From a virus, in IMG/VR virus record IMGVR_UViG_3300033571_026375, positions 1 to 64,000 of that record: DNA of 64,000 nt, one strand, 5' to 3'. The position numbers and the translations under genes were made by a program. Position 1 is the stretch's first letter, and the number at the start of each line of letters is the position of its first letter. This document shows positions 14,588 through 39,214 of this stretch, piece by piece. Below the pieces are notes generated by a model. The model made no database searches, was not told the origin of the DNA, and was given only the letters and a program-made list of their open reading frames with translations.

Positions 14588-14733
14588 TGCACACGCTGTT
14601 TTATATATTCGCTATTGGTTACTATTATCAGTTGTACATGACTAACAATTTTAACCCTGTCGGTAGAGAGTTTGCGAATTTGGTTATATTCGGCTTGCTA
14701 ACACTACTAATGAAAAATGGAGATAAAACATGA
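14584..14733 (+). CDS. 49-residue membrane protein, unknown
   Basis: This short frame runs from ATG 14584, which overlaps the dCMP deaminase stop (ATGA), to TGA 14731-14733, which overlaps the NrdB start (ATGA). It thus fills the gap between two certain genes with coupled junctions at both ends, strong evidence that it is translated. The protein has two hydrophobic segments (about 4-18 and 31-43) joined by a polar loop, suggesting a small two-pass membrane protein. It ends with an NGDKT tail. No family is recognised. GGAG within its last codons is the ribosome binding site for nrdB. Confidence 0.65.
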   Translation: MMHTLFYIFAIGYYYQLYMTNNFNPVGREFANLVIFGLLTLLMKNGDKT

Positions 14734-15704
14734 TATTTGATGAACAAATTAGTCGCAAGCCAGACAATTATCCTTGGACCCAAGAGTTCATAGAGGCTAT
14801 GCATAATGGCTTTTGGACGCACAGAGAATTTAATTTTAGTAGCGATATTCAAGATTTTCGTGTTAATCTTTCAGAACAAGAACAACAAATCGTTACTAGA
14901 GCCCTTTCTACTATCGGTCAACTAGAGATTAGTGTCAAAAAGTTTTGGGCCAAACTTGGTGATAATCTTCCTCATCCAAGTCTTAATGATATGGGATATG
15001 TAATGGCTAATGTTGAAGTTGTTCATGGTGATGCTTATGAAAGACTTCTGGAAGTGCTTGGTATAGACGATGCTTTTGATAATATATTAGAACTTGATAT
15101 TATAAAGGGCCGTGTAAACTATCTTAGAAAACACTTACATAAATTTCATGACAACAACAAGAAGCAGTTTGTTTATTCATTGATACTCTTTACATTATTT
15201 GTAGAAAATATAGCTTTATTTTCTCAGTTTTATACTATTAGCTTTTTTGGTCGGTATAAAAATGTTCTTAAAGATACAAATAAACAAGTAGAATATACAT
15301 CACGCGAAGAAAACTTACACGCTATGATCGGTATCAAAATCATTAATACTATCAAACAAGAGTATCCAGAATTATTTGATGATGAACTACAAGCCAAAAT
15401 AGAACACGAAGCCCGAGATGCTGTCAAGTATGAATGTCAGATTATAGAATGGATTGTAAATGGTTATGATCATGAAAAATTAAGTTCTCCACTATTAAAA
15501 GAATTTATTAAGAATAGAATGAACGAATCTTTAATAAAGATAGGCTATAACGGCATATTTGACACCGACCAAGATATTATTTCCAAGACGTCTTGGTTTG
15601 ATGAGCAAGTATTAGGAAACAATATGACCGACTTCTTTCATAGTCGTCCTGTTGAATATGCTAAATGTTCACAAAGTTTTGATGTGGACGATCTGTTTAG
15701 CTGA
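14730..15704 (+). CDS. nrdB: Ribonucleoside-diphosphate reductase, class I small (beta) subunit
   Basis: This 324-residue ferritin-like protein carries E96-x-x-H99-x-x-x-Y103, matching the Glu115/His118/Tyr122 set of E. coli NrdB, so the tyrosyl radical site is intact. A second metal-ligand helix holds R-E-E-N-L-H (about 192-197). The segment F-W-x-x-R-E-F-N-F-S near the start is the usual N-terminal motif. It supplies the radical to NrdA for reduction of ribonucleotides to deoxyribonucleotides. Its start overlaps the stop of the 49-residue gene. The C-terminal peptide ends in D-V-D-D-L-F-S, acidic as in NrdB tails that bind NrdA. Confidence 0.93.
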   Translation: MIFDEQISRKPDNYPWTQEFIEAMHNGFWTHREFNFSSDIQDFRVNLSEQEQQIVTRALSTIGQLEISVKKFWAKLGDNLPHPSLNDMGYVMANVEVVHGDAYERLLEVLGIDDAFDNILELDIIKGRVNYLRKHLHKFHDNNKKQFVYSLILFTLFVENIALFSQFYTISFFGRYKNVLKDTNKQVEYTSREENLHAMIGIKIINTIKQEYPELFDDELQAKIEHEARDAVKYECQIIEWIVNGYDHEKLSSPLLKEFIKNRMNESLIKIGYNGIFDTDQDIISKTSWFDEQVLGNNMTDFFHSRPVEYAKCSQSFDVDDLFS

Positions 15705-15745: not shown

Positions 15746-17398
15746 ATGACAAGTAAAAAGTATTATTGGCTAAATTCTCATAGTCGCATATTTTTAGAGA
15801 GAGGATACCTAAAAGAAGGCATAACTCCAGAAGTTAGAATACGCCAAATAGCAGAAACCGCTCAGGCTATTCTAAATATAGATGGTTTTGCAGACAAGTT
15901 TGAGGACTATATGGCTAGAGGATTCTATTCCTTAGCCACGCCTGTCTGGACAAACTTTGGTAACGATAGAGGTTTGCCGGTGTCCTGCTTTAATTCTTAT
16001 ATTCCTGATACAATGGACGATATTTTAAATAAAGTCGCTGAGGTCGGAATGATGAGCAAGCTAGGGGGTGGTACTAGCGGTTACTTTGGTGACCTTAGAC
16101 CCCGTGGTGCAAAAATAAGTGTTGGTGGAGAAAGTAGCGGCCCTGTCCACTTTATGGAGTTATTTGATAAGGTTGCAGAAGTAGTTTCTCAGGGATCGGC
16201 TAGACGAGGATCATTTGCTGCTTATTTACCAGTAGAACATCCAGACATAGAAGAATTCTTACAAATAAGATCAGAAGGACATCCTATTCAAAATATGAGT
16301 ATAGGAATTACTATATCTGACGATTGGATGAAAGATATGGTGTCTGGAGATAAAGATAAAAGAAAAATTTGGGCAAAAATTATTCAAAAAAGATTTCAGA
16401 CTGGTTATCCGTATTTGATGTTTAGTGACAATGTGAATAATAACGCCCCTCAAGCATATAAAGACAAACGATTAAAAATAAGAAGTAGTAATTTATGTAG
16501 TGAAATAGAACTTTACTCTGATAAGGATAATAGTTTTGTTTGTGTATTATCCTCTTTAAATTTATTACATTGGAACGAGATCAAGGAAACAGATGCTATA
16601 GAAATATTAATTTATTTCCTAGACACTGTTAATGAAGAATTTATTCGTAAAACTAGTAATAGTAAATTTATGTCGGCGGCTCATAACTTTGCCAAGAATC
16701 AACGAGCATTAGGAATGGGAGTATTAGGCTGGCATTCTTTGCTACAATCTAAAATGATATCTTTTGAATCTATGATGGCTAAAAGTTTAAATGTAGAGAT
16801 ATGGAAAACAATAAGATCACGAGCAGATAAGGCTTCTATAGAATTAGCTAAACTGTTTGGAGAACCAGAATTATTAAAAGGATATAATCGTCGTAATGTT
16901 ACAACGCTTGCAGTAGCACCAACCACTAGTAGCTCATTTATACTTGGCCAGGTTAGTCCTAGCATAGAGCCTCTGAATAGTAATTATTTTGTTAAGAAAT
17001 TAGCTAAAGGCAGTTTCACATATAAAAACCCTTATCTAAAAAAGATACTGAAAGATAAAAATCATGATACTGAACAGGTATGGAAAGATATCTTGGTTCG
17101 TGGAGGAAGTGTACAGCATTTGGAATGTCTAACACAGGAAGAAAAGGATATTTTCAAAACATTTGGAGAAATAAGTCAAAAAGAAATTGTCATTCAGAAT
17201 ATCCAGCGACAAAAATATATCGACCAAGCGGTGTCTTTGAATCTTATGATACCTCCTAATTGTGCAGCTAAAGACGTGAGTGACTTATTGATATATGGCT
17301 GGGAAAATGGCATAAAGACTTTTTATTACCAAAGAAGCTCAAACCCCGCTCAAGAGTTGGCTCGTAGTATTTTAACATGTAGTAGTTGTGAATCTTAA
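15746..17398 (+). CDS. nrdA: Ribonucleoside-diphosphate reductase, class I large (alpha) subunit
   Basis: This 550-residue protein has the active-site set of class I enzymes: Cys81 (E. coli C225), Asn249, Cys251 and Glu253 in N-L-C-S-E (N437/C439/E441), and Cys266 (C462). The radical-transfer Tyr pair is in K-T-F-Y-Y near residue 528. The C-terminus ends with C545-S-S-C548, the redox pair that re-reduces the active site through thioredoxin or glutaredoxin. It is shorter than cellular NrdA (about 750) because the N-terminal ATP cone is absent, as is common in phage enzymes; it is thus probably insensitive to dATP inhibition at that site. AAGGGAAAG precedes the start. Confidence 0.93.
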   Translation: MTSKKYYWLNSHSRIFLERGYLKEGITPEVRIRQIAETAQAILNIDGFADKFEDYMARGFYSLATPVWTNFGNDRGLPVSCFNSYIPDTMDDILNKVAEVGMMSKLGGGTSGYFGDLRPRGAKISVGGESSGPVHFMELFDKVAEVVSQGSARRGSFAAYLPVEHPDIEEFLQIRSEGHPIQNMSIGITISDDWMKDMVSGDKDKRKIWAKIIQKRFQTGYPYLMFSDNVNNNAPQAYKDKRLKIRSSNLCSEIELYSDKDNSFVCVLSSLNLLHWNEIKETDAIEILIYFLDTVNEEFIRKTSNSKFMSAAHNFAKNQRALGMGVLGWHSLLQSKMISFESMMAKSLNVEIWKTIRSRADKASIELAKLFGEPELLKGYNRRNVTTLAVAPTTSSSFILGQVSPSIEPLNSNYFVKKLAKGSFTYKNPYLKKILKDKNHDTEQVWKDILVRGGSVQHLECLTQEEKDIFKTFGEISQKEIVIQNIQRQKYIDQAVSLNLMIPPNCAAKDVSDLLIYGWENGIKTFYYQRSSNPAQELARSILTCSSCES

Positions 17399-22916: not shown

Positions 22917-23292
22917 TTTAACGCCAGAACAAATTACTCAAATGATTGCGATGTTGCAGTCTATGTTGCCTCAACAAAAGGAACCAGTTTCTTCTGGTGA
23001 CCATGAATTAGAAACAATTGATGCTAGTCCTATCAAAACAAAAACCAATAGACGGACGCCCGGAAATTTTGCCAATAAATTTGACAGTATGATGGAGGCA
23101 CAACTACATAAAGCAGATACTGCAATCGATAAGGCACTATCTGTATATGGCCCAACTCCTAGATCAAGAAAATTCGAACCTGTATCCGTTAAGTGCAGGG
23201 TTTGTGGCAGAACAGAGGAAATAAATCCAAATCTTTTATCGGAAGCGAAAGAGAGATACAAGTGTAATGCTTGTGCCAGGAGTCCAGGATGA
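22909..23292 (+). CDS. Zinc-ribbon protein, unknown
   Basis: This 127-residue protein has a helical start with Gln- and Met-rich sequence (1-24), a disordered Lys/Thr-rich middle, a helix with the motif F-A-N-K-F-D-S-M-M (48-56), and a C-terminal four-Cys zinc ribbon, C-R-V-C-G-R (about 98-103) with C-N-A-C (about 120-123). It probably binds nucleic acid or bridges replication proteins. The stop overlaps the DnaB start by ATGA and the helicase ribosome binding site lies within its last codons, so the two are coupled. Confidence 0.65.
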   Translation: MDNLTPEQITQMIAMLQSMLPQQKEPVSSGDHELETIDASPIKTKTNRRTPGNFANKFDSMMEAQLHKADTAIDKALSVYGPTPRSRKFEPVSVKCRVCGRTEEINPNLLSEAKERYKCNACARSPG

Positions 23293-24755
23293 TACTTTGT
23301 GATACAGCAGCAGAGAGAGCTGTTTTGGCGGGAATATCTGTATATGGGGATGAAAGCTATTTAGAGATAGCCGACCTGATACAAGAAAGCACTTTTACTG
23401 TAGATAGCAATAAGATTATCTATAGATGCTTAAAACATATTTTTGATCAAGAACATCGTCCTAAGATCGACGTTGCCACTATTTTATCTGCTTCTTCGGA
23501 ACTGGGTTTATCTCACTTTTTTAACAAAAAAGAAGAAACACAACACCTTAAAGCTATTCTAGATTTTCCTGTCAATAGTGAAAATATTAGAAAATTTGCA
23601 GCAAAAATTAGAAAGCTAGAAATCGCTAGGCTTCTAAGAAACCAGCTAGAAAAAGCGCAGGATAAAATCTTAGATGTTACAGGAACGGAGAGTGTAGGTT
23701 CGATACTTGGCATAGCAGAGGATGCCATTTTTGATTTTTCGTCGTTGCTAAATGATTCTGATTCTGGACCGGAAAGCATAGCCTCTAATTTAGACGAATA
23801 TATAGATCAACTCATAAATAATCCCATAGATCAAGTGGGTATCCCGACAGGGTTTCCTGCATATGATAATGCAATAGGTGGTGGTCTTAGAAAAAGCACC
23901 ATAAACGTTATTGCTGCACGACCCAAAACAGGTAAAACCTTGTTGTCTGATAATATAGGATTTTATATTGCCAATAAACTAAAAATTCCTGTGCTCAATA
24001 TGGATACAGAAATGACCAAGGAAGATCATGTTAATCGTGTTATTGCTATGATGACAGAGATGGAAATAAACCATATAGAAACCGGAAAATTTGCCGAGTC
24101 TGCCAGCAAGTTAGAAAAAATCAAGGTCGCAACGGCTGATCTTAAACAAACTCCTTTGTATTACAAATCTATTGCAGGCAAGCCCTTTGAGGATCAACTA
24201 GCCATAATGAGACGATGGATAGTCAAAGAGGTTGGCCTTAATCCAGATGGCTCCGCTAAAGATTGTGTAATTTTTTATGATTATCTTAAATTGATGGACA
24301 CCCAAGGTATGTCACAAGACTTAAAAGAATACCAGGTTCTTGGTTTTATGATGACATCATTGCATAATTTTGCCAGTAAATATAAAATTCCTATTGTTGC
24401 TTTTGTTCAATTAAATAGAGATGGTATCTCTAAAGAAAGCACAGATACCGCATCTGGCTCGGATAGAATTATATGGTTGTGTAGCAATTTCAGTATATTC
24501 AAAAGAAAAACACCAGAGGAAATCGCAGAAGATGGTCCGGATAATGGAAATAGGAAGCTCGTACCGCTTGTGAGCCGACATGGTGGCGGACTCGACGACA
24601 ACGATTATATTAATTGTCACATGAAGGGCTGGTGCGCCAAGATCACTGAAGGTCAAACCAAACTTGAACTAATGAAGAACAGCGGATCCCGCTCTAACGG
24701 ATTTATTATCGATGAAAACAATGAAAAAAACGAATCAGAAATCCCATTTGAATGA
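23289..24755 (+). CDS. dnaB: DnaB-family replicative helicase
   Basis: This 488-residue protein has an N-terminal helical DnaB-type domain (about 5-105, starting A-A-E-R-A-V-L-A-G-I), a linker helix (about 105-150), then a RecA-like motor with Walker A A-R-P-K-T-G-K-T (210-217) and N-M-D-T-E-M in the H1a position (about 237-242). C-V-I-F-Y-D-Y (Walker B, about 330-336) and V-A-F-V-Q-L-N-R (about 371-378) follow. It unwinds DNA at the fork and is expected to pair with the primase next door. Start 23289 has AGGAG 6 bases upstream (23278-23282); an in-frame TTG at 23271 lacks support. It overlaps the primase start by 44 bases. Confidence 0.9.
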   Translation: MILCDTAAERAVLAGISVYGDESYLEIADLIQESTFTVDSNKIIYRCLKHIFDQEHRPKIDVATILSASSELGLSHFFNKKEETQHLKAILDFPVNSENIRKFAAKIRKLEIARLLRNQLEKAQDKILDVTGTESVGSILGIAEDAIFDFSSLLNDSDSGPESIASNLDEYIDQLINNPIDQVGIPTGFPAYDNAIGGGLRKSTINVIAARPKTGKTLLSDNIGFYIANKLKIPVLNMDTEMTKEDHVNRVIAMMTEMEINHIETGKFAESASKLEKIKVATADLKQTPLYYKSIAGKPFEDQLAIMRRWIVKEVGLNPDGSAKDCVIFYDYLKLMDTQGMSQDLKEYQVLGFMMTSLHNFASKYKIPIVAFVQLNRDGISKESTDTASGSDRIIWLCSNFSIFKRKTPEEIAEDGPDNGNRKLVPLVSRHGGGLDDNDYINCHMKGWCAKITEGQTKLELMKNSGSRSNGFIIDENNEKNESEIPFE

Positions 24756-25875
24756 TCAAGCAAAACTTAAAATTTTGTGCGATAATCTTTGTGATAATAT
24801 AGAAGAACTACTAAATCATTTTTCTTTAGAATACAAAACATCCTCTAAAATGATTTCTATGGCTTGTCCTATACATGGAGGAGATAATATAAGTGCCATA
24901 AATCTTTATGTGCAAGGAGATTCTTATAGGGGTAATTGGAAGTGCAGAACTCATAATTGTGAACAAATTTTTAAAGGTTCTATACTAGGTTTTGTGAGAG
25001 GCATTTTATCTCATTCCAAATATGATTGGTCAAAAGATGGTGATGAAGCATGCTCTTTTAAAGAAACTATAGATTTTGTTTCTAAATTTCTCAATAAAAA
25101 TTTAGCAGATATTAAAATCTCTACTACTCATAGAAATAAGCAACAGTTTACATCCATTATTAACCAGATGTCGAATCCTCGCATGTCTGAAAAAACCAAT
25201 CATCCCAATAGAGATACTGTCAGAAAAAATTTGATTATTCCATCCGAGTATTTTATTAATAGAGGATTTTCTAAAGAGATTTTAGATAAATATGATATAG
25301 GCTTATGTAATAAGCCAAATAAAGAAATGTATAATAGAGTGGTTGCTCCTATATATGATAATAAGCATGAGTATATGATTGGATGCTCAGGCAGAAGTAT
25401 ATATGAGAAGTGTAACGACTGCCATCTGTTTCACGATCCTATACTAGCGTGTCCCAAAGAAGAATACAAATATATGTATTCTAAATGGAAACACAGCTTA
25501 AATTTTAAAAGTCAAAATCACTTATATAACTATTGGTTTGCAAAAGATCATATACACAAAGATCAATATGTTATTATTGTAGAGAGTCCGGGTAATGTAT
25601 GGAGACTAGAAGAAGCCGGTATTCATCACAGCGTTGCCATTTTCGGCTCATCTATTAGTGATCGTCAAAAAATGATTCTTGATGGATCAGGAGCGATGAG
25701 CGTGTTCGTTTTGGCCGATAATGATGAAGCAGGAAAAAAAGCAGCAGAACAAATTAGATCAAAATGTCAAAATACATACAAAGTTATTATACCCGATAAT
25801 ATCCGAAAAAATGATATAGGAGAAATGACAATAGAAGAGATTAAACAAGATATTCTCCCTCTATTGCCTAACTAA
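24712..25875 (+). CDS. DnaG-type/T7 gp4-type DNA primase
   Basis: This 387-residue protein has an N-terminal zinc-binding domain with C52-P-I-H55 and C78-R-T-H-N-C83, and a Toprim domain at about 286-350 with E291 in I-V-E-S-P-G-N and D336-N-D338 in V-L-A-D-N-D-E-A-G. An H-x-D/N-like pair of Cys clusters (C234, C237) lies between, perhaps a second metal site. It makes RNA primers on the lagging strand. There is no C-terminal helicase, consistent with the separate DnaB gene that it overlaps. Two in-frame ATGs (24712 and 24721) are possible starts. Confidence 0.85.
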   Translation: MKTMKKTNQKSHLNDQAKLKILCDNLCDNIEELLNHFSLEYKTSSKMISMACPIHGGDNISAINLYVQGDSYRGNWKCRTHNCEQIFKGSILGFVRGILSHSKYDWSKDGDEACSFKETIDFVSKFLNKNLADIKISTTHRNKQQFTSIINQMSNPRMSEKTNHPNRDTVRKNLIIPSEYFINRGFSKEILDKYDIGLCNKPNKEMYNRVVAPIYDNKHEYMIGCSGRSIYEKCNDCHLFHDPILACPKEEYKYMYSKWKHSLNFKSQNHLYNYWFAKDHIHKDQYVIIVESPGNVWRLEEAGIHHSVAIFGSSISDRQKMILDGSGAMSVFVLADNDEAGKKAAEQIRSKCQNTYKVIIPDNIRKNDIGEMTIEEIKQDILPLLPN

Positions 25876-25880
25876 TTTTT

Positions 25881-26462
25881 ATGACACATATTATAGCTTT
25901 CGCCGGTAAAAAACAATCTGGTAAAACAACATCCGCTGAGTTTGTGGTATCTTTATATCCCGATCTCAAATGTTGTATCTATAATTTCGCTGATCCACTC
26001 AAAAAAAATATTTGTATGGATATTTTAGGATTGACATATGATCAATGCTACGGTTCTGATGCTCAAAAAAATGAGCTAGTCGATTGTTACTGGCAAAAAC
26101 AACAAATGACCTCACGAGAAGTTATGCAGTTTGTTGGCACCGATATTTTTCGAAATATACAAACTGATGTATGGGCCAATGCTACTATTAATAAAATTCA
26201 TAGAGATAACGTGGATTTGGCCATTATCGCAGATTGTCGATTTCCCAACGAGGTGTCCGCTATAAAAAAGGCTGGTGGTTGCATTATCAAATTAAATAGA
26301 AACCCTTATAGCTCAAACCATGAGAGTGAGATAGCGCTCGACGCCCCTGGATACGATCATTCTGTATTTGATTTGGTAATAGAGAACCACGATATTAAAA
26401 TACCAGAGCAAAATACAATTATAGCTCAATTTTTGACCCAATTACTAAAGGACAAAATATGA
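25881..26462 (+). CDS. Deoxynucleoside monophosphate kinase (T4 gp1-like)
   Basis: This 193-residue P-loop kinase has G-K-K-Q-S-G-K-T (9-16), F-A-D-P-L-K in the early monophosphate-binding part (about 36-41), a Q-F-V-G-T-D-I-F-R motif (about 87-95) and D-C-R-F-P-N-E (about 114-120), the pattern of phage dNMP kinases. These phosphorylate dNMPs to dNDPs and complete the pool-building set with RNR and dCMP deaminase. The start lies 5 bases after the primase stop, and the stop overlaps the following nuclease start by ATGA. Confidence 0.85.
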   Translation: MTHIIAFAGKKQSGKTTSAEFVVSLYPDLKCCIYNFADPLKKNICMDILGLTYDQCYGSDAQKNELVDCYWQKQQMTSREVMQFVGTDIFRNIQTDVWANATINKIHRDNVDLAIIADCRFPNEVSAIKKAGGCIIKLNRNPYSSNHESEIALDAPGYDHSVFDLVIENHDIKIPEQNTIIAQFLTQLLKDKI

Positions 26463-27502
26463 TTGTTACATATATACGCAGTTCCAGTTATGGAACTCAT
26501 TCTTTTTGTCCTATGCAATATTTTATAGAATATAACCTAGGTATAAAATCGCCATCCAATAAAAAAGCAGATAAGGGCACAATATGCCATAAGGTTTTTG
26601 AAATTTTGGCAGAAATCAAGATGTGTACACAACAAGGCAGACCATATTTTTATGATGATATTGTTAATCAAGTAGATGTCAAGAACTATAATTTAGACAC
26701 TATTATAGAACAGGTTTACCAATATTATACTAGTTTATTTACTCATCATGCATGGTCTAGCACGGACTATAAAGATTGTTATAAGTGGGTATATAAAGCT
26801 TTAGAACATAATAATGGAATGTTCGATCCTAGACAACGAGATATAGTTCAACCCGAACAACATTTCGATATAGAAATAAAAAAAGATTGGGCAAAATATG
26901 ACTATCTCACCAAAGAAGGGCGACTCACAGGTAATTTGGCTATCAAAGGAACTATCGATCTTATTACCAAAGTTAACGACGATACACTAGAAGTGATCGA
27001 CTGGAAAACAGGGAAAAGATTAGATTGGGCAACCGGAGAGGAAAAAACTCTAGATAAATTACATAGAGACGCTCAATTAATGTTATATTATTATGCCATT
27101 AAGCAGTTGTATCCTGCTATTAAGCATGTGATTGTATCTATTAATTTTATAAATGATGGCGGAATGTTTTCTGTTTGTTTTGACGACTCTCATCTTCATC
27201 AAGTAGAAATGATGCTAAAAAATAAATTTGATAGTATCAGAAATACTACAAATCCACAACTCAATAAAAGTTGGAAATGCACTAAATTATGTCATTTTGG
27301 TAAAAATACATTCGAGAATAGTGAGCATTTACCGATCATAGAATACAGATCGAAGCAAGTTACTCCGATTGACAAACATATGACACAGTGTGAACAAATA
27401 AAACATGAAATAGACTTACACGGAATGGAATATGCCATTGACACATACCAGCGCGAAGGCTATAATATCGGTCAATACAAAGCGCCCGGTTCTGCCGAAT
27501 AA
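26459..27502 (+). CDS. PD-(D/E)XK exonuclease, RecB/Cas4-like
   Basis: This 347-residue protein has the RecB-nuclease motif order: a G-T-x-x-H helix (40-44, His44), G-T-I-D-L-I (Asp167), I-D-W-K-T-G (Asp181 and Lys183) and Q-L-M-L-Y-Y-Y (Gln206). Cys17 near the start and Cys274/Cys278 near the end echo the iron-sulfur cysteines of Cas4/AddB-type nucleases, but the usual fourth Cys is not obvious, so a cluster is uncertain. It probably resects DNA ends for recombination. It is translationally coupled on both sides: ATGA upstream and TAATG with the polymerase downstream. Confidence 0.85.
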   Translation: MIVTYIRSSSYGTHSFCPMQYFIEYNLGIKSPSNKKADKGTICHKVFEILAEIKMCTQQGRPYFYDDIVNQVDVKNYNLDTIIEQVYQYYTSLFTHHAWSSTDYKDCYKWVYKALEHNNGMFDPRQRDIVQPEQHFDIEIKKDWAKYDYLTKEGRLTGNLAIKGTIDLITKVNDDTLEVIDWKTGKRLDWATGEEKTLDKLHRDAQLMLYYYAIKQLYPAIKHVIVSINFINDGGMFSVCFDDSHLHQVEMMLKNKFDSIRNTTNPQLNKSWKCTKLCHFGKNTFENSEHLPIIEYRSKQVTPIDKHMTQCEQIKHEIDLHGMEYAIDTYQREGYNIGQYKAPGSAE

Positions 27503-29376
27503 TGAAGAAATACATTCCTCTCCATGTGCATTCAATGTACAGCCTATTGGATGGACTATCCAAACCGTCTCAGATCGCTTCTCGCTGTTTGGAGATAGGT
27601 GCCAAATCCTGTGCTCTTACCGATCATGGTAATATAGCTGGCGCTATTAAATTTTATACAGAAATGAGACGAAATGGCATCAAGCCGATTTTGGGCTGTG
27701 AATTATACATTTCGTCACAAGATGCTGCCATACAGGACAAATCGAATAAAAAATTAAGCCATCTTTTAGTATTAGCAAAAAACTATGATGGATGGAAAAA
27801 CTTGATACAGATAGTGTCAGAATCAAACAAGCCAGACCTATATTACCACAGACCTAGGCTAGATCTTGATAGATTAGGGCATTTAGTTAATGGCAATCTG
27901 ATAGCTATATGCGGACACTTAGGCTCTGTTTTGTCTGATAAATTGATAGATAGTGATAAAATCATATCCGACTGGAAAAATATTGGATCTCAAAATATAC
28001 ATAAGTTGCAAGATGTATTTGGTAAGGAAAATGTTTTCTTGGAAAGTCAATTGATGGATAAGCATAATTTGACTATTCAAGTACATTTGACGGAGTGTAT
28101 TAGGGAATTATCTAAGATTACAAATACCAAAGTGGTCTGCACACCAGATGCCCATTATTGTAGAAAAGAAGATGCGGTAGATCAAAGAATCCTATTATGC
28201 AATAATTTAAAAACAACATTTCCAGAGATCAATAAAAAATTATCAAATTCCGAGGATATAGGTTTATCAGCCTTTTTCCTATCTGATAATTTTCATATAC
28301 TATCACAAGATGAAATACGAACCCTTCATACCGAAGAAGAAATAGAGAATACGAATTATATAGATTCTTTATGTGAAGAATACAATATCTTGAGCAAGCC
28401 TAATTTACCTCCGTTCTCTTGTCCTCAGGGTTATGATGATGCAGAATATCTCAGAGAGTTGTGTAGAAAAGGATGGAAAGAAAAAATAGTTCCACTAGTA
28501 GATAAAGAACAACATGGCGCATATGTAGATAGAATCAAATACGAACTAGAAGTTCTACAAGGTGCTGACCTATCTAGCTATTTTCTAATAGTGCAGGATA
28601 TAGTGAACTATGTAAGAAGCAATAACTGGCTTCCCGGGCCGGGCAGAGGAAGTGCTGCTGGTTGTTTGGTCTCCTATTTAATAGGTATTACCAATATAGA
28701 TCCAATTAAGTATAATCTAATGTTTGATAGATTTTATAATGCTGGTAGAAATACTGCAGAACATATCTCTATGCCAGATATAGATGTTGATGTTCCTATC
28801 AATCAAAGAGAAAATATTATCGAATATATTAAAAAGAAATATGGACATGATAAAGTTTCTCAGATGATTACGTTTAATACAATCAAAGGAAGAGGAGCCT
28901 TGAAAGATGTATTGCGTGTTTATGGTAATATTTCTTTCGATGAAATGAACAATATCACCAAGCACATACCAGATGAAGCTAAAATAGCTGACGATCTACA
29001 AGAAATGAAAGAAGAAACGGGAGAAGCGTCTATTATACGCTGGGCATTAGAAAATAATGGAGATAAATTAAAAGATTGGTGCTATTTAGATGAGAATCAA
29101 CAATTACAAGGACCACTTGCCAAAAGGTTCGAACAGGCTATAAGATTAGAGGGCACGAAATCTAATCAATCCAAGCATGCCGCCGGCATAGCCATCAGCT
29201 CCCATGCTTTAAAAGATATATGTCCTATGGTGTACGATGTAAAAAATGAGCAAACGATAGCCGGTATGGAGATGCAAGATTTAGAATCTTTGGGTATAAT
29301 AAAGTTTGACATATTGGGAGTTGCTATGTTAGATAAAATTATGACTATACAAGATATTTTAAAAAAGGGAGAATAA
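27502..29376 (+). CDS. dnaE: DNA polymerase III alpha subunit, N-terminal piece (PHP + palm)
   Basis: This 624-residue protein is the first half of a C-family (DnaE-type) polymerase. The PHP domain (1-235) has the metal ligands H8-x-H10, D41-H42, E67 and D216-x-H218, so it may be an active phosphoesterase. The palm has P-G-R-G-S-A-A-G (380-387), the catalytic P-D426-I-D428 and the third Asp603 in K-F-D-I-L-G. The protein stops 21 residues later, where DnaE normally continues into the fingers, and those are encoded at 30260-31885. No intein motif (initial Cys, block B) is visible at the break, so the halves probably assemble without splicing. It is coupled to the upstream nuclease gene by TAATG. 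Confidence 0.88.
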   Translation: MKKYIPLHVHSMYSLLDGLSKPSQIASRCLEIGAKSCALTDHGNIAGAIKFYTEMRRNGIKPILGCELYISSQDAAIQDKSNKKLSHLLVLAKNYDGWKNLIQIVSESNKPDLYYHRPRLDLDRLGHLVNGNLIAICGHLGSVLSDKLIDSDKIISDWKNIGSQNIHKLQDVFGKENVFLESQLMDKHNLTIQVHLTECIRELSKITNTKVVCTPDAHYCRKEDAVDQRILLCNNLKTTFPEINKKLSNSEDIGLSAFFLSDNFHILSQDEIRTLHTEEEIENTNYIDSLCEEYNILSKPNLPPFSCPQGYDDAEYLRELCRKGWKEKIVPLVDKEQHGAYVDRIKYELEVLQGADLSSYFLIVQDIVNYVRSNNWLPGPGRGSAAGCLVSYLIGITNIDPIKYNLMFDRFYNAGRNTAEHISMPDIDVDVPINQRENIIEYIKKKYGHDKVSQMITFNTIKGRGALKDVLRVYGNISFDEMNNITKHIPDEAKIADDLQEMKEETGEASIIRWALENNGDKLKDWCYLDENQQLQGPLAKRFEQAIRLEGTKSNQSKHAAGIAISSHALKDICPMVYDVKNEQTIAGMEMQDLESLGIIKFDILGVAMLDKIMTIQDILKKGE

Positions 29377-29377
29377 A

Positions 29378-29563
29378 ATGACAAGAATGGCAGATTTAAA
29401 AAATGGTGATAAATTTTTATACAATCAACAAGAATACCTGAGAATACCAGACGAAAGATTGAGTTGCTGCAAAGTATTTAATGCTCAGTCTGTTGCTACG
29501 GGAGAAAAGATACAAGTTGTGCCCATTACAGAGGTGGAAGTAATTCAATCTAATAACTCATGA
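29378..29563 (+). CDS. 61-residue protein inserted in the polymerase operon, unknown
   Basis: This small soluble protein reads as a compact beta-barrel-like unit: M-A-D-L-K-N-G-D-K-F-L-Y-N-Q-Q-E-Y-L-R-I, a loop with C-C-K-V-F-N-A, then I-Q-V-V-P-I-T-E-V-E-V-I. That strand pattern suits an SH3- or OB-like fold. It starts 1 base after the dnaE-N stop and overlaps the exonuclease start by ATGA. Its fixed place between the polymerase halves and the exonuclease makes a replisome accessory or clamp-adaptor role attractive, but that is only inference. Confidence 0.6.
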   Translation: MTRMADLKNGDKFLYNQQEYLRIPDERLSCCKVFNAQSVATGEKIQVVPITEVEVIQSNNS

Positions 29564-30267
29564 TAAACTACAATAAAATATGTGTCTTTGATTTTGAGAC
29601 GGACGGCTCCGATCCTACTCAATGTAGTCCTGTTCAGATAGCCTCGGTGATAATTGATCCAATATCTCTAGAGATTATTCCAGATTCAGAATTTAATATT
29701 TACTTCAAGCCCGAAGTTTTGGAAAAAAATCCTGAGTATGTATATGAAACTGATATCTTGGATTTTCATGCCAAAGTTAAGGGTTCTTCCAAAAAAGAAG
29801 TACTGGACGAATGGCTCAAGTATCCTCCTCAAGAACAATCCTGGAAAATGTTTACAGAATATTTAACAAAATACCATAGTAGAAGTTCTAAGAAAAATCA
29901 ATTTTCTGCGCCGCTACCAGCTGGATACAATATTAATCGCTTTGATCTAAAAATTATTGATAGATTAAGTCAGAAATATGGGGATACCAATAAAGAAGGT
30001 AATAGCAATATTTTCTTTCAAAGAGATGTTATAGATATTATGAACTTAGTATTTTATTGGTTTGAACAAAATAACGATCTTAAAAGCTATTCTATGGATA
30101 ATCTTAGAGATTATCTAGGCATAGATAAAAAAGGTGCTCATGATGCTCTTAAAGATGTTAAGGACTGTGCAGAGATACTGATGAGATTTCTAAAACTTCA
30201 TCGTAATGTATCTCAAAAGGTTAAGTTCAAAGATTCATTTGTATCGTCGTCAAATAAACATGCCTAA
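29560..30267 (+). CDS. DnaQ-like (DEDDh) 3'-5' exonuclease
   Basis: This 235-residue exonuclease has all four acidic sites plus His: Exo I D11-F-E13-T, Exo II in N-I-N-R-F-D129, and Exo III H194-D-A-L-K-D199, a DEDDh active site. It is longer than the E. coli epsilon domain because of an insert (about 50-115). It likely proofreads for the split C-family polymerase whose halves flank it, and could also be recruited by the C-terminal basic tail (K-V-K-F-K-D...). Its start overlaps the 61-residue gene (ATGA), and its stop overlaps the second polymerase piece by 8 bases. Confidence 0.85.
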   Translation: MINYNKICVFDFETDGSDPTQCSPVQIASVIIDPISLEIIPDSEFNIYFKPEVLEKNPEYVYETDILDFHAKVKGSSKKEVLDEWLKYPPQEQSWKMFTEYLTKYHSRSSKKNQFSAPLPAGYNINRFDLKIIDRLSQKYGDTNKEGNSNIFFQRDVIDIMNLVFYWFEQNNDLKSYSMDNLRDYLGIDKKGAHDALKDVKDCAEILMRFLKLHRNVSQKVKFKDSFVSSSNKHA

Positions 30268-31885
30268 AACTTTTAATTACGATTGTGGATGCTCATTCGA
30301 TATTATTCCATCAGAAAACAACCAGTTATTGGTGGAGTTTGATCCAATTAGACATAGTTTAAATCTAGACTGTTCTAAAACCTGGGACCTAATATCTGAC
30401 GGCAATACTAAAGGATGCTTTCAATTGGAGTCTAGGCTTGGACGGTCTATGGCTAAAAAACTAAAGCCTCGAAATATAGAACATCTATCTGCTTTGATCA
30501 GCATATTAAGGCCTGGGTGCTTGGAGGCAATTAGAGATGGAAAAACAGTATCTAACCACTATATAGATAAAAAAAATGGGCAAGAGTCTATCGACTATTA
30601 TCATCCGTGTCTAGAAAATATTCTTAAGACCACATACGGAGAGATGATTTATCAAGAACAAGCAATGGAAATTGCTAAATATATAGCAGGATTTGATTTA
30701 CAGGAAGCAGATAATTTGAGAAAGGCTATTGGTAAAAAAAAGCCAGAAGAAATGTCCAAACTTAAAAGTAAATTTTTACAAGGGTCCGAAAAACTGGGTT
30801 TAGTTAGCGCCTCGCAAGCAGAAGAAATATTCGGATGGATAGAAAAGAGCCAAAGATATTCTTTTAATAAAAGTCATGCTATATCTTATGCTATCAATGC
30901 TTATTTATCTGCATATACAAAAGCTCATTTCCCTAAGATTTTTTTTGCTTCTTATTTAAGGTTCGCCAAAGATAAAATAGATCCAAAAGCAGAAATTAAA
31001 GAGCTTGTGCAGAATGCCACCGAAATGGATATTCAGGTCTGTATACCTGATCTAAGAAATCTGAATAAATTATTCATACTGAAAGATAGTTGTATCTATT
31101 TTGGTTTAACGGACATTAAAGGCTTTGGAGAATCAGTATTTAATAAACTAGGTGGTCTTATCACTAATAAACATTTAGATATCAAATCCATGAAATGGGA
31201 TCAAATACTACTTCAAATATTAATAAATATTAATTCTACGTCTGCTAAAGCATTAATAAAAAGTGGAGCTTTAAATTATGACAAAAAAACTCGAACTAGT
31301 ATGCTATTCGAATATAGTATAGCTTGTGAACTAACAAAAAAAGAAATAGAATTTATAATCAGCAAAGTTGATATAGGAGAGTCTTTCTTGAGTTCTATGA
31401 AAAGCATGACCTCCCAATATAAGCTTACAGAAAAAAGAAAACAAATTATTTATAGTTTAATAGACAATTTAAATCGTCCTCCATATTCTATGGATGATAA
31501 CGCTGAATGGATATCGGATATAGAGGAGGAGGTGCTAGGTTGTAGTGTCACCTGTTCAAAAGTAGACATGTATGATATCAGTATGACTAATTGCAATTGT
31601 AAAGAATTCAAAACATTGCTAATGAAAGAAAATATCATTCTATGTGGAGAAATAGATAACATAGGAATTACAAAAACAAAAACAGGAAAGACCCCAGGCT
31701 CAGAAATGGCTTTCGTAACCCTATCCGATAGTTATGGATCAATAGATAGTGTCATTTTTTTCCCTGATACTTATAAACAGTATAGAAATATATTATTCGA
31801 AAATAATGTAATTATTATTAAGGGTAAAAAAAATAATACTGGAGATAGTTTCATAGTGGAGAAGGCTTATATTCCAAAAACTTGA
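30260..31885 (+). CDS. dnaE: DNA polymerase III alpha subunit, C-terminal piece (fingers to OB)
   Basis: This 541-residue protein continues DnaE where the first piece stops. It has G-C-F-Q-L-E-S (fingers start), L-R-P-G-C-L, Y-Q-E-Q-A-M, R-K-A-I-G-K-K-K-P-E-E-M, and Y-S-F-N-K-S-H-A with the DnaE pattern G/S-F-N-K-S-H. After these come the HhH-type region and a C-terminal OB fold (about 450-541, N-I-I-L-C-G-E-I-D-N-I). Residues 1-45 (Y-D-C-G-C-S-F...) do not match DnaE and may be a docking segment. ATG 30260 is preferred to an upstream in-frame start at 30206 that lies within the exonuclease gene. The F-N-K-S-H site, where cyanobacterial DnaE inteins sit, is intact here. It should bind the N-piece to form one polymerase. 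Confidence 0.85.
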   Translation: MPKTFNYDCGCSFDIIPSENNQLLVEFDPIRHSLNLDCSKTWDLISDGNTKGCFQLESRLGRSMAKKLKPRNIEHLSALISILRPGCLEAIRDGKTVSNHYIDKKNGQESIDYYHPCLENILKTTYGEMIYQEQAMEIAKYIAGFDLQEADNLRKAIGKKKPEEMSKLKSKFLQGSEKLGLVSASQAEEIFGWIEKSQRYSFNKSHAISYAINAYLSAYTKAHFPKIFFASYLRFAKDKIDPKAEIKELVQNATEMDIQVCIPDLRNLNKLFILKDSCIYFGLTDIKGFGESVFNKLGGLITNKHLDIKSMKWDQILLQILININSTSAKALIKSGALNYDKKTRTSMLFEYSIACELTKKEIEFIISKVDIGESFLSSMKSMTSQYKLTEKRKQIIYSLIDNLNRPPYSMDDNAEWISDIEEEVLGCSVTCSKVDMYDISMTNCNCKEFKTLLMKENIILCGEIDNIGITKTKTGKTPGSEMAFVTLSDSYGSIDSVIFFPDTYKQYRNILFENNVIIIKGKKNNTGDSFIVEKAYIPKT

Positions 31886-31909
31886 CCGTGAGTCGGCCAT
31901 TTCTATAAT
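31882..31909 (+). promoter_or_regulatory. Strong sigma-70 promoter for ssb
   Basis: TTGACC (31882-31887) and a perfect TATAAT (31904-31909) are separated by 16 bases. As in the sugar-cassette promoter, the -35 box overlaps the TGA stop of the upstream gene (31883-31885). A transcript starting near 31916 would carry the strong AAGGAG ribosome binding site (31940-31945), 6 bases from the ssb ATG. Confidence 0.75.
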
Positions 31910-31951
31910 AAACGTTGGTTTTGGTTTTATTTAATTTTCAAGGAGATATTT

Positions 31952-32320
31952 ATGAATATCAATATGTTACGAGGTAATTTAGCAAGAGATCCAGAGTTAA
32001 GGAGTGTATCAACCAATGGTAAAACAACATCGGTTGTAAATTTTACTATTGCTGTGTCTCGTGAATACACAAAGTCTAACGGAGACAAGGATAAGATTAC
32101 CACATTTGTTCCTTGTGAGGCGTGGGATTCTGGGGCAGAAATTATAGGGAAGTCCTTCAAGAAGGGGGATCTCGTAATGATTGAAGGATCACTTAGAAAT
32201 GATTCTTGGGAGAAGGATGGAGTGAAGCATAATTCACTCAAGGTAAGAGTAAATAATTTTTCGAAGATTGCTAGACTATCTAGCGCCAAGACAGAAGAAG
32301 CTCAACCTGTAGCCTTCTAA
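31952..32320 (+). CDS. ssb: Single-stranded DNA-binding protein (SSB)
   Basis: This 122-residue bacterial-type SSB has an OB fold over residues 1-105 with L-x-G-N-L-A-R-D-P-E-L-R (6-17), a V-V-N-F-T-I-A-V segment near 28-35, and E-G-S-L-R-N-D-S-W (about 80-88), the usual order. The C-terminal tail is very short (A-Q-P-V-A-F) and lacks the acidic D-D-D-I-P-F tip that recruits partners in bacteria, although it keeps the final Phe. It coats DNA for the UvsX, DnaB and PolIII machinery. It has its own promoter and a downstream hairpin, so it is probably expressed at a higher level than its neighbours. Confidence 0.92.
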   Translation: MNINMLRGNLARDPELRSVSTNGKTTSVVNFTIAVSREYTKSNGDKDKITTFVPCEAWDSGAEIIGKSFKKGDLVMIEGSLRNDSWEKDGVKHNSLKVRVNNFSKIARLSSAKTEEAQPVAF

Positions 32321-32346
32321 GTAAGATTTCGGTGGCTAACCTTAGG

Positions 32347-32382
32347 AATGTATAAGATTCTCTTCGGAGAATCTTATGCATT
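32347..32382 (+). terminator. UUCG-loop hairpin after ssb, probable terminator
   Basis: An 11-base perfect stem, ATAAGATTCTC (32352-32362) with GAGAATCTTAT (32367-32377), closes the tetraloop TTCG (32363-32366). Further pairs, including one T-G wobble, extend it to about 32347-32382, 16 bp in all. The following 20 bases are T-rich (TTACCTTATTACTCTATTTT) but without a clean T-tract. A C(UUCG)G loop is exceptionally stable. It may terminate the ssb transcript or protect its 3' end. Confidence 0.65.
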
Positions 32383-32416
32383 ACCTTATTACTCTATTTT
32401 ACTAGATAAGATATAA

Positions 32417-37984: not shown

Positions 37985-38448
37985 ATATTGCATTTTATTT
38001 ACTCGATATTGAGCAAAATAATATTCGGCATCAAGAAATATTAAAAACTATCAATAATTTGTGCTCACTAAGACCATATGATAATATCGTGTTATTTAAT
38101 AACAATTTTAATACTATAGATAGTAATCAAAAATATTACCTATTACCAATTAATCATGCAAAATATTTTAGAGGACTTTTATTTTTATTTGATACAGAAC
38201 ATGCGTTGTTAACCAAAACTTTTCCAGGGCCGGATAAACAGTTTATTTGCATGGACAAACCAACATGGGCAGAGAATACTAATATTCCGTTTAGCGTATG
38301 GTATTCTGTGTATATGGATCACAAATTCGAATTACTGGTTGATTCTGAATATTTATATGACTTGGTTGATACATGCTGGAAAAAACCATTTAATAAATCA
38401 TTTAACCTTACTGCAGAAAATATAGACAATGTTATACGACAACTATAA
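37981..38448 (+). CDS. Unknown small protein, last of the glycosyltransferase run
   Basis: This 155-residue protein begins N-I-A-F-Y-L-L-D-I-E and contains D-N-I-V-L-F-N-N-N-F (about 35-44), a Rossmann-like beta-alpha pattern that would fit the N-terminal half of a GT-B domain. W-A-E-N-T-N-I-P-F-S-V-W-Y (about 96-108) is a notable aromatic patch. No catalytic motif is seen. It overlaps the homing-type nuclease gene by 20 bases. The function is not recognised. Confidence 0.5.
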   Translation: MNIAFYLLDIEQNNIRHQEILKTINNLCSLRPYDNIVLFNNNFNTIDSNQKYYLLPINHAKYFRGLLFLFDTEHALLTKTFPGPDKQFICMDKPTWAENTNIPFSVWYSVYMDHKFELLVDSEYLYDLVDTCWKKPFNKSFNLTAENIDNVIRQL

Positions 38449-39214
38449 TAACGACAAAGAGAAGGCAAGTATTATACACGAGATGTATGTTGTTAAGCGT
38501 ATGAGCTTTTATGATATAGCCAATGAATTAGGCACATATGCCAATAGAATAAGAAGAGATGCTAAAAAATTTAATATACCTATTAGAGATAAGAGTTCAG
38601 CCCAAAAAAATGCTTTGACAACAGGCAAGCATAGTCATCCTACAAAAGGTAAACAAAGACCAAATGACACAAAAACAAAAATCGGCAAAGGAGTAATGGA
38701 AAATTGGGAGAATCTATCGGAAAAAGAAAAACAAAAAAGAAAAATTGTATCTAAGCAATTATGGGAAAATCTAAGCGATGATGAAAAAGAAGCCAGGCTC
38801 AAAGCTGCAAATATAGCAGTTCGAAAAACAAGCAAAGTAGGATCAAAATTAGAACACTTCCTATTAGAAAATCTTACTCAAGACGGATACAAAGTAGAAT
38901 TTCATAAAGAACAAAACTTATCAAATACAAAGTTGCAGATTGACCTGTATCTACCTACTATGAGTATAGCAATCGAGGTTGATGGTCCTTCTCATTTTGA
39001 GCCAGTTTGGGGCGATGATTCTTTGCAAAAAAATAAAAAATCTGATAAGAAAAAATCGGGCCTTATTATAGGAAAAGGGCTGAAGTTGATCAGGCTCAGA
39101 CAAACCCATGATTTCTCAAAAACCAGAGCAAATCTATTATACGAAAAGCTACAACAAATTATTAAAGATAAAACTAGTTTTGATAATACAAAAATTATAA
39201 CTATAGAGGATTAA
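38429..39214 (+). CDS. HTH + PD-(D/E)XK homing-type endonuclease
   Basis: This 261-residue protein has an N-terminal helix-turn-helix (S-F-Y-D-I-A-N-E-L-G-T-Y-A-N-R-I-R-R, about 26-43), a NUMOD-like G-K-H-S-H-P-T-K-G-K segment (about 66-75), a long charged helical linker, then a VSR-like nuclease core with I-D-L-Y-L-P (Asp near 171) and I-E-V-D-G-P-S-H (about 181-188), and a C-terminal L-K-L-I-R-L. This modular layout is typical of stand-alone homing-type phage nucleases. The start is uncertain (38429 overlaps the previous gene by 20 bases; 38483 is an alternative). It sits at a module border. Confidence 0.7.
   Translation: MLYDNYNNDKEKASIIHEMYVVKRMSFYDIANELGTYANRIRRDAKKFNIPIRDKSSAQKNALTTGKHSHPTKGKQRPNDTKTKIGKGVMENWENLSEKEKQKRKIVSKQLWENLSDDEKEARLKAANIAVRKTSKVGSKLEHFLLENLTQDGYKVEFHKEQNLSNTKLQIDLYLPTMSIAIEVDGPSHFEPVWGDDSLQKNKKSDKKKSGLIIGKGLKLIRLRQTHDFSKTRANLLYEKLQQIIKDKTSFDNTKIITIED

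Follow-up and report, generated by a model that had tools for sequence, protein, structure and literature searches.

The 64-kb window is the first part of a 119.8-kb viral contig, and a 223-kb contig of the viral collection is 100% identical to it across the compared region. Its plus strand carries a replication block that is collinear in its entirety among relatives. The block opens with a DnaB-like replicative helicase (23271-24755) and a DnaG-like Toprim primase (24712-25875), both recognized by Pfam and PHROG matches, followed by a small gene, putatively deoxynucleotide kinase-like by eye (25881-26462), that is collinear across all relatives. A PD-(D/E)XK nuclease gene (26459-27502) then overlaps, stop on start, the gene for a 624-residue DnaE fragment (N-piece, 27502-29376) with a PHP domain and the PolIII-alpha palm and thumb. 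Downstream lie a 61-residue protein, S61 (29378-29563); a 235-residue DEDDh 3'-5' exonuclease of epsilon/DnaQ type (EXO, 29560-30267), whose start overlaps the S61 stop as ATGA; and a second DnaE fragment of 541 residues (C-piece, 30260-31885), in which a CGC-containing N-terminal beta extension, about 30 residues long, precedes the fingers, HhH and OB fold. The C-piece ORF is open from 30206, and we set its start at the ATG at 30260, where the alignment of relatives begins. The SSB gene (31952-32320), with its own AAGGAGA ribosome-binding site, is the last of the block.

The spacing of these genes shows translational coupling from the PD-(D/E)XK gene through the C-piece: the median distances between successive genes (PD-(D/E)XK to N-piece, N-piece to S61, S61 to EXO, EXO to C-piece) are -4, +2, -4 and -4 nt, while the median gap before SSB is +68 nt (about 66 nt in the window). 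The coupled cluster would thus end before SSB.

The two DnaE fragments together carry the domains of a PolIII alpha. The N-piece matches the Pfam families PHP (PF02811, 4.6e-36) and DNA_pol3_alpha (PF07733, 5.6e-73), and the C-piece matches DNA_pol3_finger (PF17657, 1.9e-45), HHH_6 (PF14579) and OB (PF01336). D426 and D428 of the N-piece align with D463 and D465 of Taq PolIII-alpha and are invariant in 91 of 91 relatives; D603, within a KFDILG motif, is invariant in 89, the remaining two rows being truncated. The sequence-only reading had named these three residues as catalytic, and the alignments bear this out. The PHP ligands D17, H42, E67, H87, D216 and H218 are likewise invariant in the alignment of relatives, and H8 and H10, also present in the window N-piece, are conserved. 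On the C-piece, the fingers motifs FQLES, RPG, IYQEQ, LRKAIGKK and FNxSH are invariant or nearly so, and the AlphaFold model of this chain aligns over about 520 columns with solved PolIII-alpha chains. Both pieces are intact and conserved in relatives (54-82% identity), with all catalytic residues retained. With PHP domain, palm aspartates, fingers, HhH and OB fold all present, the pair is by sequence a C-family DNA polymerase (PolIII alpha, DnaE-type) encoded in two ORFs; the one departure from such an enzyme is that it is not a single polypeptide, two ORFs being found at all 205 loci that contain N-piece, EXO and C-piece. Bacterial PolIII alpha (DnaE; Taq 2hpi/3e0d, E. coli 2hnh/5fku) has the same domain order, from PHP through a palm with three Asp, fingers and HhH to OB, at about 25-35% identity to the window pieces, but is one chain, whereas here a break between palm and fingers yields two, with two genes in between.

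The break can be placed precisely. In the full-length phage DnaE family phrog_405, the N-piece covers positions 41-616 and the C-piece positions 624-1076, so that the cut corresponds to an 8-residue gap in the alignment. In Taq PolIII-alpha, the N-piece covers the sequence up to about residue 635-639 and the C-piece picks it up again at 647, with a linker of about 10 residues in between; the corresponding positions in E. coli PolIII alpha are 566 and 589. The N-piece terminates 21 residues past D603, as expected from the earlier suggestion that the gene breaks just after the third catalytic Asp. These alignments put the cut in the linker that joins the last palm helix to the fingers. In place of the linker of about 10 residues stands the CGC-bearing extension of about 30 residues on the C-piece, which AlphaFold models as three short strands with a pLDDT of around 83. 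Nearly all relatives have the C-piece with its own conserved start and extension. The CGC part is missing in loci L036, L039, L048, L136 and L141 and is therefore not essential.

We searched the break for elements that could rejoin the pieces. Neither the N-piece nor the C-piece of the window matches a Pfam intein family at either end, while the same search detects Intein_splicing in insertions of relatives. No Rfam intron match was found in 27300-32400 up to E=1. An intein and an intron at the break were therefore both rejected, the former as the sequence-only reading had anticipated. The window break also has no homing endonuclease, S61 and EXO being the sole genes between the pieces.

EXO matches RNase_T (PF00929, 2.9e-13) and the polymerase exonuclease subunit family phrog_192 (1.3e-23), and all 78 aligned relatives keep its D11, E13, D129, H194 and D199. 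With these DEDDh residues and its RNase_T membership, it is a predicted DnaQ/epsilon-type proofreading exonuclease. In two loci, cargo genes are inserted between EXO and the C-piece (L045, 10769-11784; L223, 2358-5850), those of L223 including by eye thymidylate-synthase-like and methyltransferase-like genes.

S61 lies between N-piece and EXO in every relative examined, and all 59 matches of its profile in the viral collection fall in this operon (the search used a 7-row subset of a 41-row alignment, the full set being too diverse). Its sequence has no match in Pfam, PDB sequences or cultured phages. PHROG returned weak matches only, and phrog_2183, in the single contig that it matched, lands on the S61 gene itself. 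Residues F13, C30, C31 and V53 are invariant. S61 is thus a real, operon-specific part, and an adaptor role is plausible. One alternative goes further and makes it a dedicated adaptor that holds N-piece, C-piece and exonuclease together, a possibility we regard as tentative. Its constant presence in this operon, the invariant CC and F motifs, the SH3-like barrel predicted by AlphaFold (pLDDT 95) and the overlap coupling to EXO speak for such a role. Against it, the model also resembles, weakly, EF-P/eIF5A domains and, in its fold, many uncharacterized small phage proteins outside such operons. S61 also retains only 25-57% identity to the window protein in relatives, and on this basis evolves much faster than either polymerase piece; a role in nucleic-acid binding or in regulation would be just as possible. 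A zinc site shared by the C-piece CGC and the S61 CC was considered and dropped: the five loci without the CGC retain the CC.

We further investigated how widely this arrangement is conserved. An N-piece scan of viral contigs recovered 80 relatives, 66-100% identical, with the same gene order in every one that spans the region. With further scans, 222 loci were gathered, of which 205 contain N-piece, EXO and C-piece; N precedes EXO and EXO precedes C in all 205, which represent 117 distinct sequences. The earlier proposal that related phages share the order thus holds throughout. No fusion of N with C, or of EXO with either, was found among 267 N and 212 C ORFs, and the conservation of the four-gene order is far more than expected by chance. 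The order is nonetheless weak evidence for a complex with EXO or S61, because the whole replication block is equally collinear. The phage family is large and aquatic in source. Among bacterial genome contigs, the sole match is one of 9.4 kb (L230, NZWA01000066.1) from a Flavobacteriales MAG bin, 78% identical, a weak hint of either a host link or bin contamination.

The split enzyme is probably also the only polymerase that these phages encode. In eight related contigs of 157-244 kb, including the 223-kb contig identical to the window in the compared region, searches recovered a single fingers domain each and neither PolA, PolB nor another DnaE, and the split DnaE is therefore probably the replicative enzyme of the family. 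A rival full-length polymerase, named beforehand as a finding that would make the split one inactive, is absent from all eight. Our searches found no sliding clamp of the bacterial beta or T4 gp45 type. They also found no unsplit sister: the best hits among cultured phages are full-length polymerases that share only about 30-35% identity, leaving no sister by which to date the fission. Several human-faecal "phage" records among these full-length matches resemble bacterial dnaE contigs.

In relatives, the genes for N-piece and C-piece carry insertions. At GPGRG in the N-piece, L167 (3180-4380) and L194 (3190-4400), with which L195 is grouped, have split inteins whose halves are separated by an endonuclease-like gene; a small split intein at the same site is found without such a gene in L140 (3795-4150). 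In the C-piece, L029 (10738-13089) has a contiguous intein with an HNH-like part at ILRPG/C, and L150 (8723-11373) apparently has a split intein at FNKS. A LAGLIDADG gene interrupts the DIDVD motif of the N-piece in L215 (3400-4530). By sequence, the N and C genes are a favorite target for mobile elements. As relatives carry inteins and other insertions in these genes, fission by mobile elements is a likely origin of the split; that an element since lost from the palm-fingers linker caused the fixed break would be a natural but unproven extension.

A different kind of interruption affects the N-gene of about 40 distinct relatives, not that of the window. In these, a good ribosome-binding site, an ATG, about nine codons and PLHVHS, with the metal motif HVHS, are followed by TAA or TAG, and the remainder of the PHP domain ([H/M][Y/F]SLLDG...) resumes after an extra 8, 9, 10 or 11 nt, in all three frames. 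In 39 distinct elements, the stop follows a TCT or TCC codon. A hairpin encloses the stop and gap site with an outer stem of 8 bp (GTCCATTC/GGATGGAC), and its inner stem covaries, with the pairs UAGUGA/UCACUA, UAACGA/UCGUUA, UAGAGA/UCUCUA, UAGCGA/UCGCUA, AGCGAAU/AUUCGCU and AAGUGAAU/AUUCACUU. The inner stem was tabulated sequence by sequence, as the automatic RNA consensus, owing to differing loop lengths, recovered only the outer stem. A second hairpin of variable strength lies upstream of the stop-hairpin. A pattern scan returned 55 stretches, and all distinct elements lie in the N-gene. Candidates are found at L061 (7963-8044), L140 (2632-2710), L013 (7945-8023), L194 (2016-2096) and L224 (3199-3269), besides about 35 other distinct elements.

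With a stop after the take-off codon, a take-off hairpin and an upstream hairpin, the 39 distinct elements have the features of T4-like ribosomal bypassing. Since the gaps of 8-11 nt span all three frames, a common simple frameshift or stop read-through was rejected, and the gap pattern fits a hop that would restore the ancestral length. If that length is assumed, the landing codon is a serine TCN in 24 of the 39, ACT in nine and GCT in six. We lean towards ribosomal bypassing in these N-genes and offer it as a hypothesis, since only 24 of the 39 would land on a codon of the take-off serine family. The N-terminal His pair is presumably still made, because the PHP metal ligands further downstream show no change. 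Mapped on the N-piece tree, the interruption requires 12 changes, at least 8 of them on well-supported branches. An HNH-type homing endonuclease gene lies directly upstream of the interrupted N-gene in L140 (1917-2645), and a homologous endonuclease occupies the same place in L194 (1310-2029). L141 (3040-3200), although 96-97% identical to L140, has neither endonuclease nor interruption and reads HAHSHDSLLDG straight through. Endonuclease and interruption together look like a mobile cassette, in parallel with T4 mobA and the bypass of gene 60.

Split phage polymerases are already known, and what is new here is the unusual palm-fingers cut site together with its strict conservation. We found this split in no cultured phage, and no paper in the open-access literature that describes a C-family polymerase divided between palm and fingers. 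In the cultured Krampusvirus (Microbacterium phage JDawG, gp55/gp56), a C-family polymerase occupies two adjacent genes, but the split separates PHP from the rest and leaves palm and fingers on one chain. In the Bacillus phages Jayan (L082, 3980-7387) and vB_BauM_KLEB27-3 (L084, 3914-8284), dnaE is annotated as two ORFs, separated by a small ORF or an HNH gene; unlike in the window, the exonuclease gene is not between the halves, and the breaks lie within motifs (MP/DIDTD; FQIE/S), pointing to insertion elements at those sites and not to fission at a domain boundary. These interruptions are likely intron or endonuclease insertions, although no Rfam intron was found in either interrupted dnaE.

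Three further systems invite comparison. The "fractured genes" of cyanobacterial split DnaE inteins likewise place dnaE in two genes, and relatives of the window phage have comparable split inteins (L167, L194 and L140 at GPGRG in N; apparently L150 at FNKS in C). The palm-fingers break differs in having neither intein halves nor an endonuclease, and no covalent ligation is therefore expected. Phage N4 RNAPII (gp15-gp16) offers a normally single-chain phage polymerase that works as a heterodimer of two gene products (PMC4496689); it is a T7-like RNA polymerase and differs from the window DnaE in fold and split site. In T4, the homing endonuclease mobA split the topoisomerase gene 39/60, and one part carries a 50-nt bypassed insert (PMC5009743). 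Relatives of the window phage similarly show a homing endonuclease gene and a hop-like insert in the N-gene, but the gene is a different one and no endonuclease is left at the actual N/C break.

We consider it highly probable that the locus encodes a permanently split, two-chain C-family replicase, held together non-covalently and made from a coupled operon with its proofreader, S61 maybe helping in docking. The replicase would be a DnaE-type polymerase in two polypeptides, cut in the exposed palm-fingers linker: the N-piece would supply the PHP nuclease domain together with all three catalytic aspartates, and the C-piece the HhH, the OB and the fingers, where the incoming nucleotide is held. 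Made side by side from the translationally coupled operon, the chains would join non-covalently into one active polymerase, with which EXO would associate, functionally as an alpha-epsilon core. The C-piece would have gained its small N-terminal beta module, and the SH3-like S61 may aid docking. The split itself probably arose once, in the ancestor of the phage family, by gene fission driven by mobile elements, as still seen in relatives; a simple fission with insertion of the S61-EXO pair would be an alternative. The split, its site and conservation and the intact catalytic residues are what we observe, as is the lack of inteins and of any second polymerase; from these we infer assembly, the role of S61 and origin; an assembly of N-piece, C-piece and EXO, with or without S61, is plausible. 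The ORFs, Pfam matches and phrog_405 place the genes where the sequence-only reading had put a split C-family polymerase with an exonuclease and a 61-residue gene inside it, and its proposal of a two-subunit enzyme is supported, at the level of sequence, by the shared order and by the lack of an intein, an intron family or a second polymerase.

A bolder version, which we hold to be possible yet doubtful, makes the family's only replicase an obligate enzyme of four parts, N-piece, S61, EXO and C-piece, in which S61 as a dedicated subunit would replace the covalent palm-fingers link. The gene would have been fractured by mobile endonucleases in the manner of T4 39/60, and in relatives the mobile, endonuclease-linked element would let ribosomes hop past a stop codon within the PHP domain.

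Could the pieces instead be joined covalently, by protein trans-splicing, RNA splicing or recoding, into an ordinary one-chain polymerase? The true split inteins of L167, L194 and L140 and the contiguous intein of L029 show that splicing elements do enter these genes, and the N-gene of some relatives seems to require recoding near its start. At the break itself, however, the C-end of the N-piece and the N-end of the C-piece have no Pfam intein, 27300-32400 has no Rfam intron, two complete conserved genes intervene, and the C-piece keeps its own start and extension in nearly all relatives. We judge covalent joining very improbable.

That the pieces are a decaying relic of a phage relying on the host replicase, as split genes are often pseudogenes and no phage clamp was found, is scarcely credible given the strong purifying conservation of both halves and of all catalytic residues in more than 60 distinct relatives each, with no half truncated or missing in loci spanning the region. 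Equally far-fetched is that the halves act apart, N as a PHP nuclease, for which its metal ligands are retained, and C as a DNA-binding protein, with no polymerase formed: N keeps invariant polymerase aspartates and C keeps nucleotide-binding fingers motifs that are invariant or nearly so, a retention on both chains that makes sense only if the halves meet, and the eight long contigs hold no other polymerase.

If the two-chain replicase is correct, it breaks a polymerase where this would be least expected, as palm and fingers jointly form the active site, yet the break is fixed in a large phage family. It would offer a natural system to study how separate chains assemble, regulate and couple a C-family polymerase to a proofreader, and the palm-fingers break would give polymerase engineers a ready place to split the enzyme. 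In the relatives, it becomes visible how inteins, homing endonucleases and recoding elements break essential genes, and the bypass element, if true, would add another rare example of mobile ribosomal bypassing in phages.

Elsewhere in the window, an HNH/homing endonuclease gene lies at 38429-39214 (phrog_559, phrog_9084). The large subunit of ribonucleotide reductase (15746-17398), at 550 residues, is short for NrdA and adjoins NrdB at 14730-15704.
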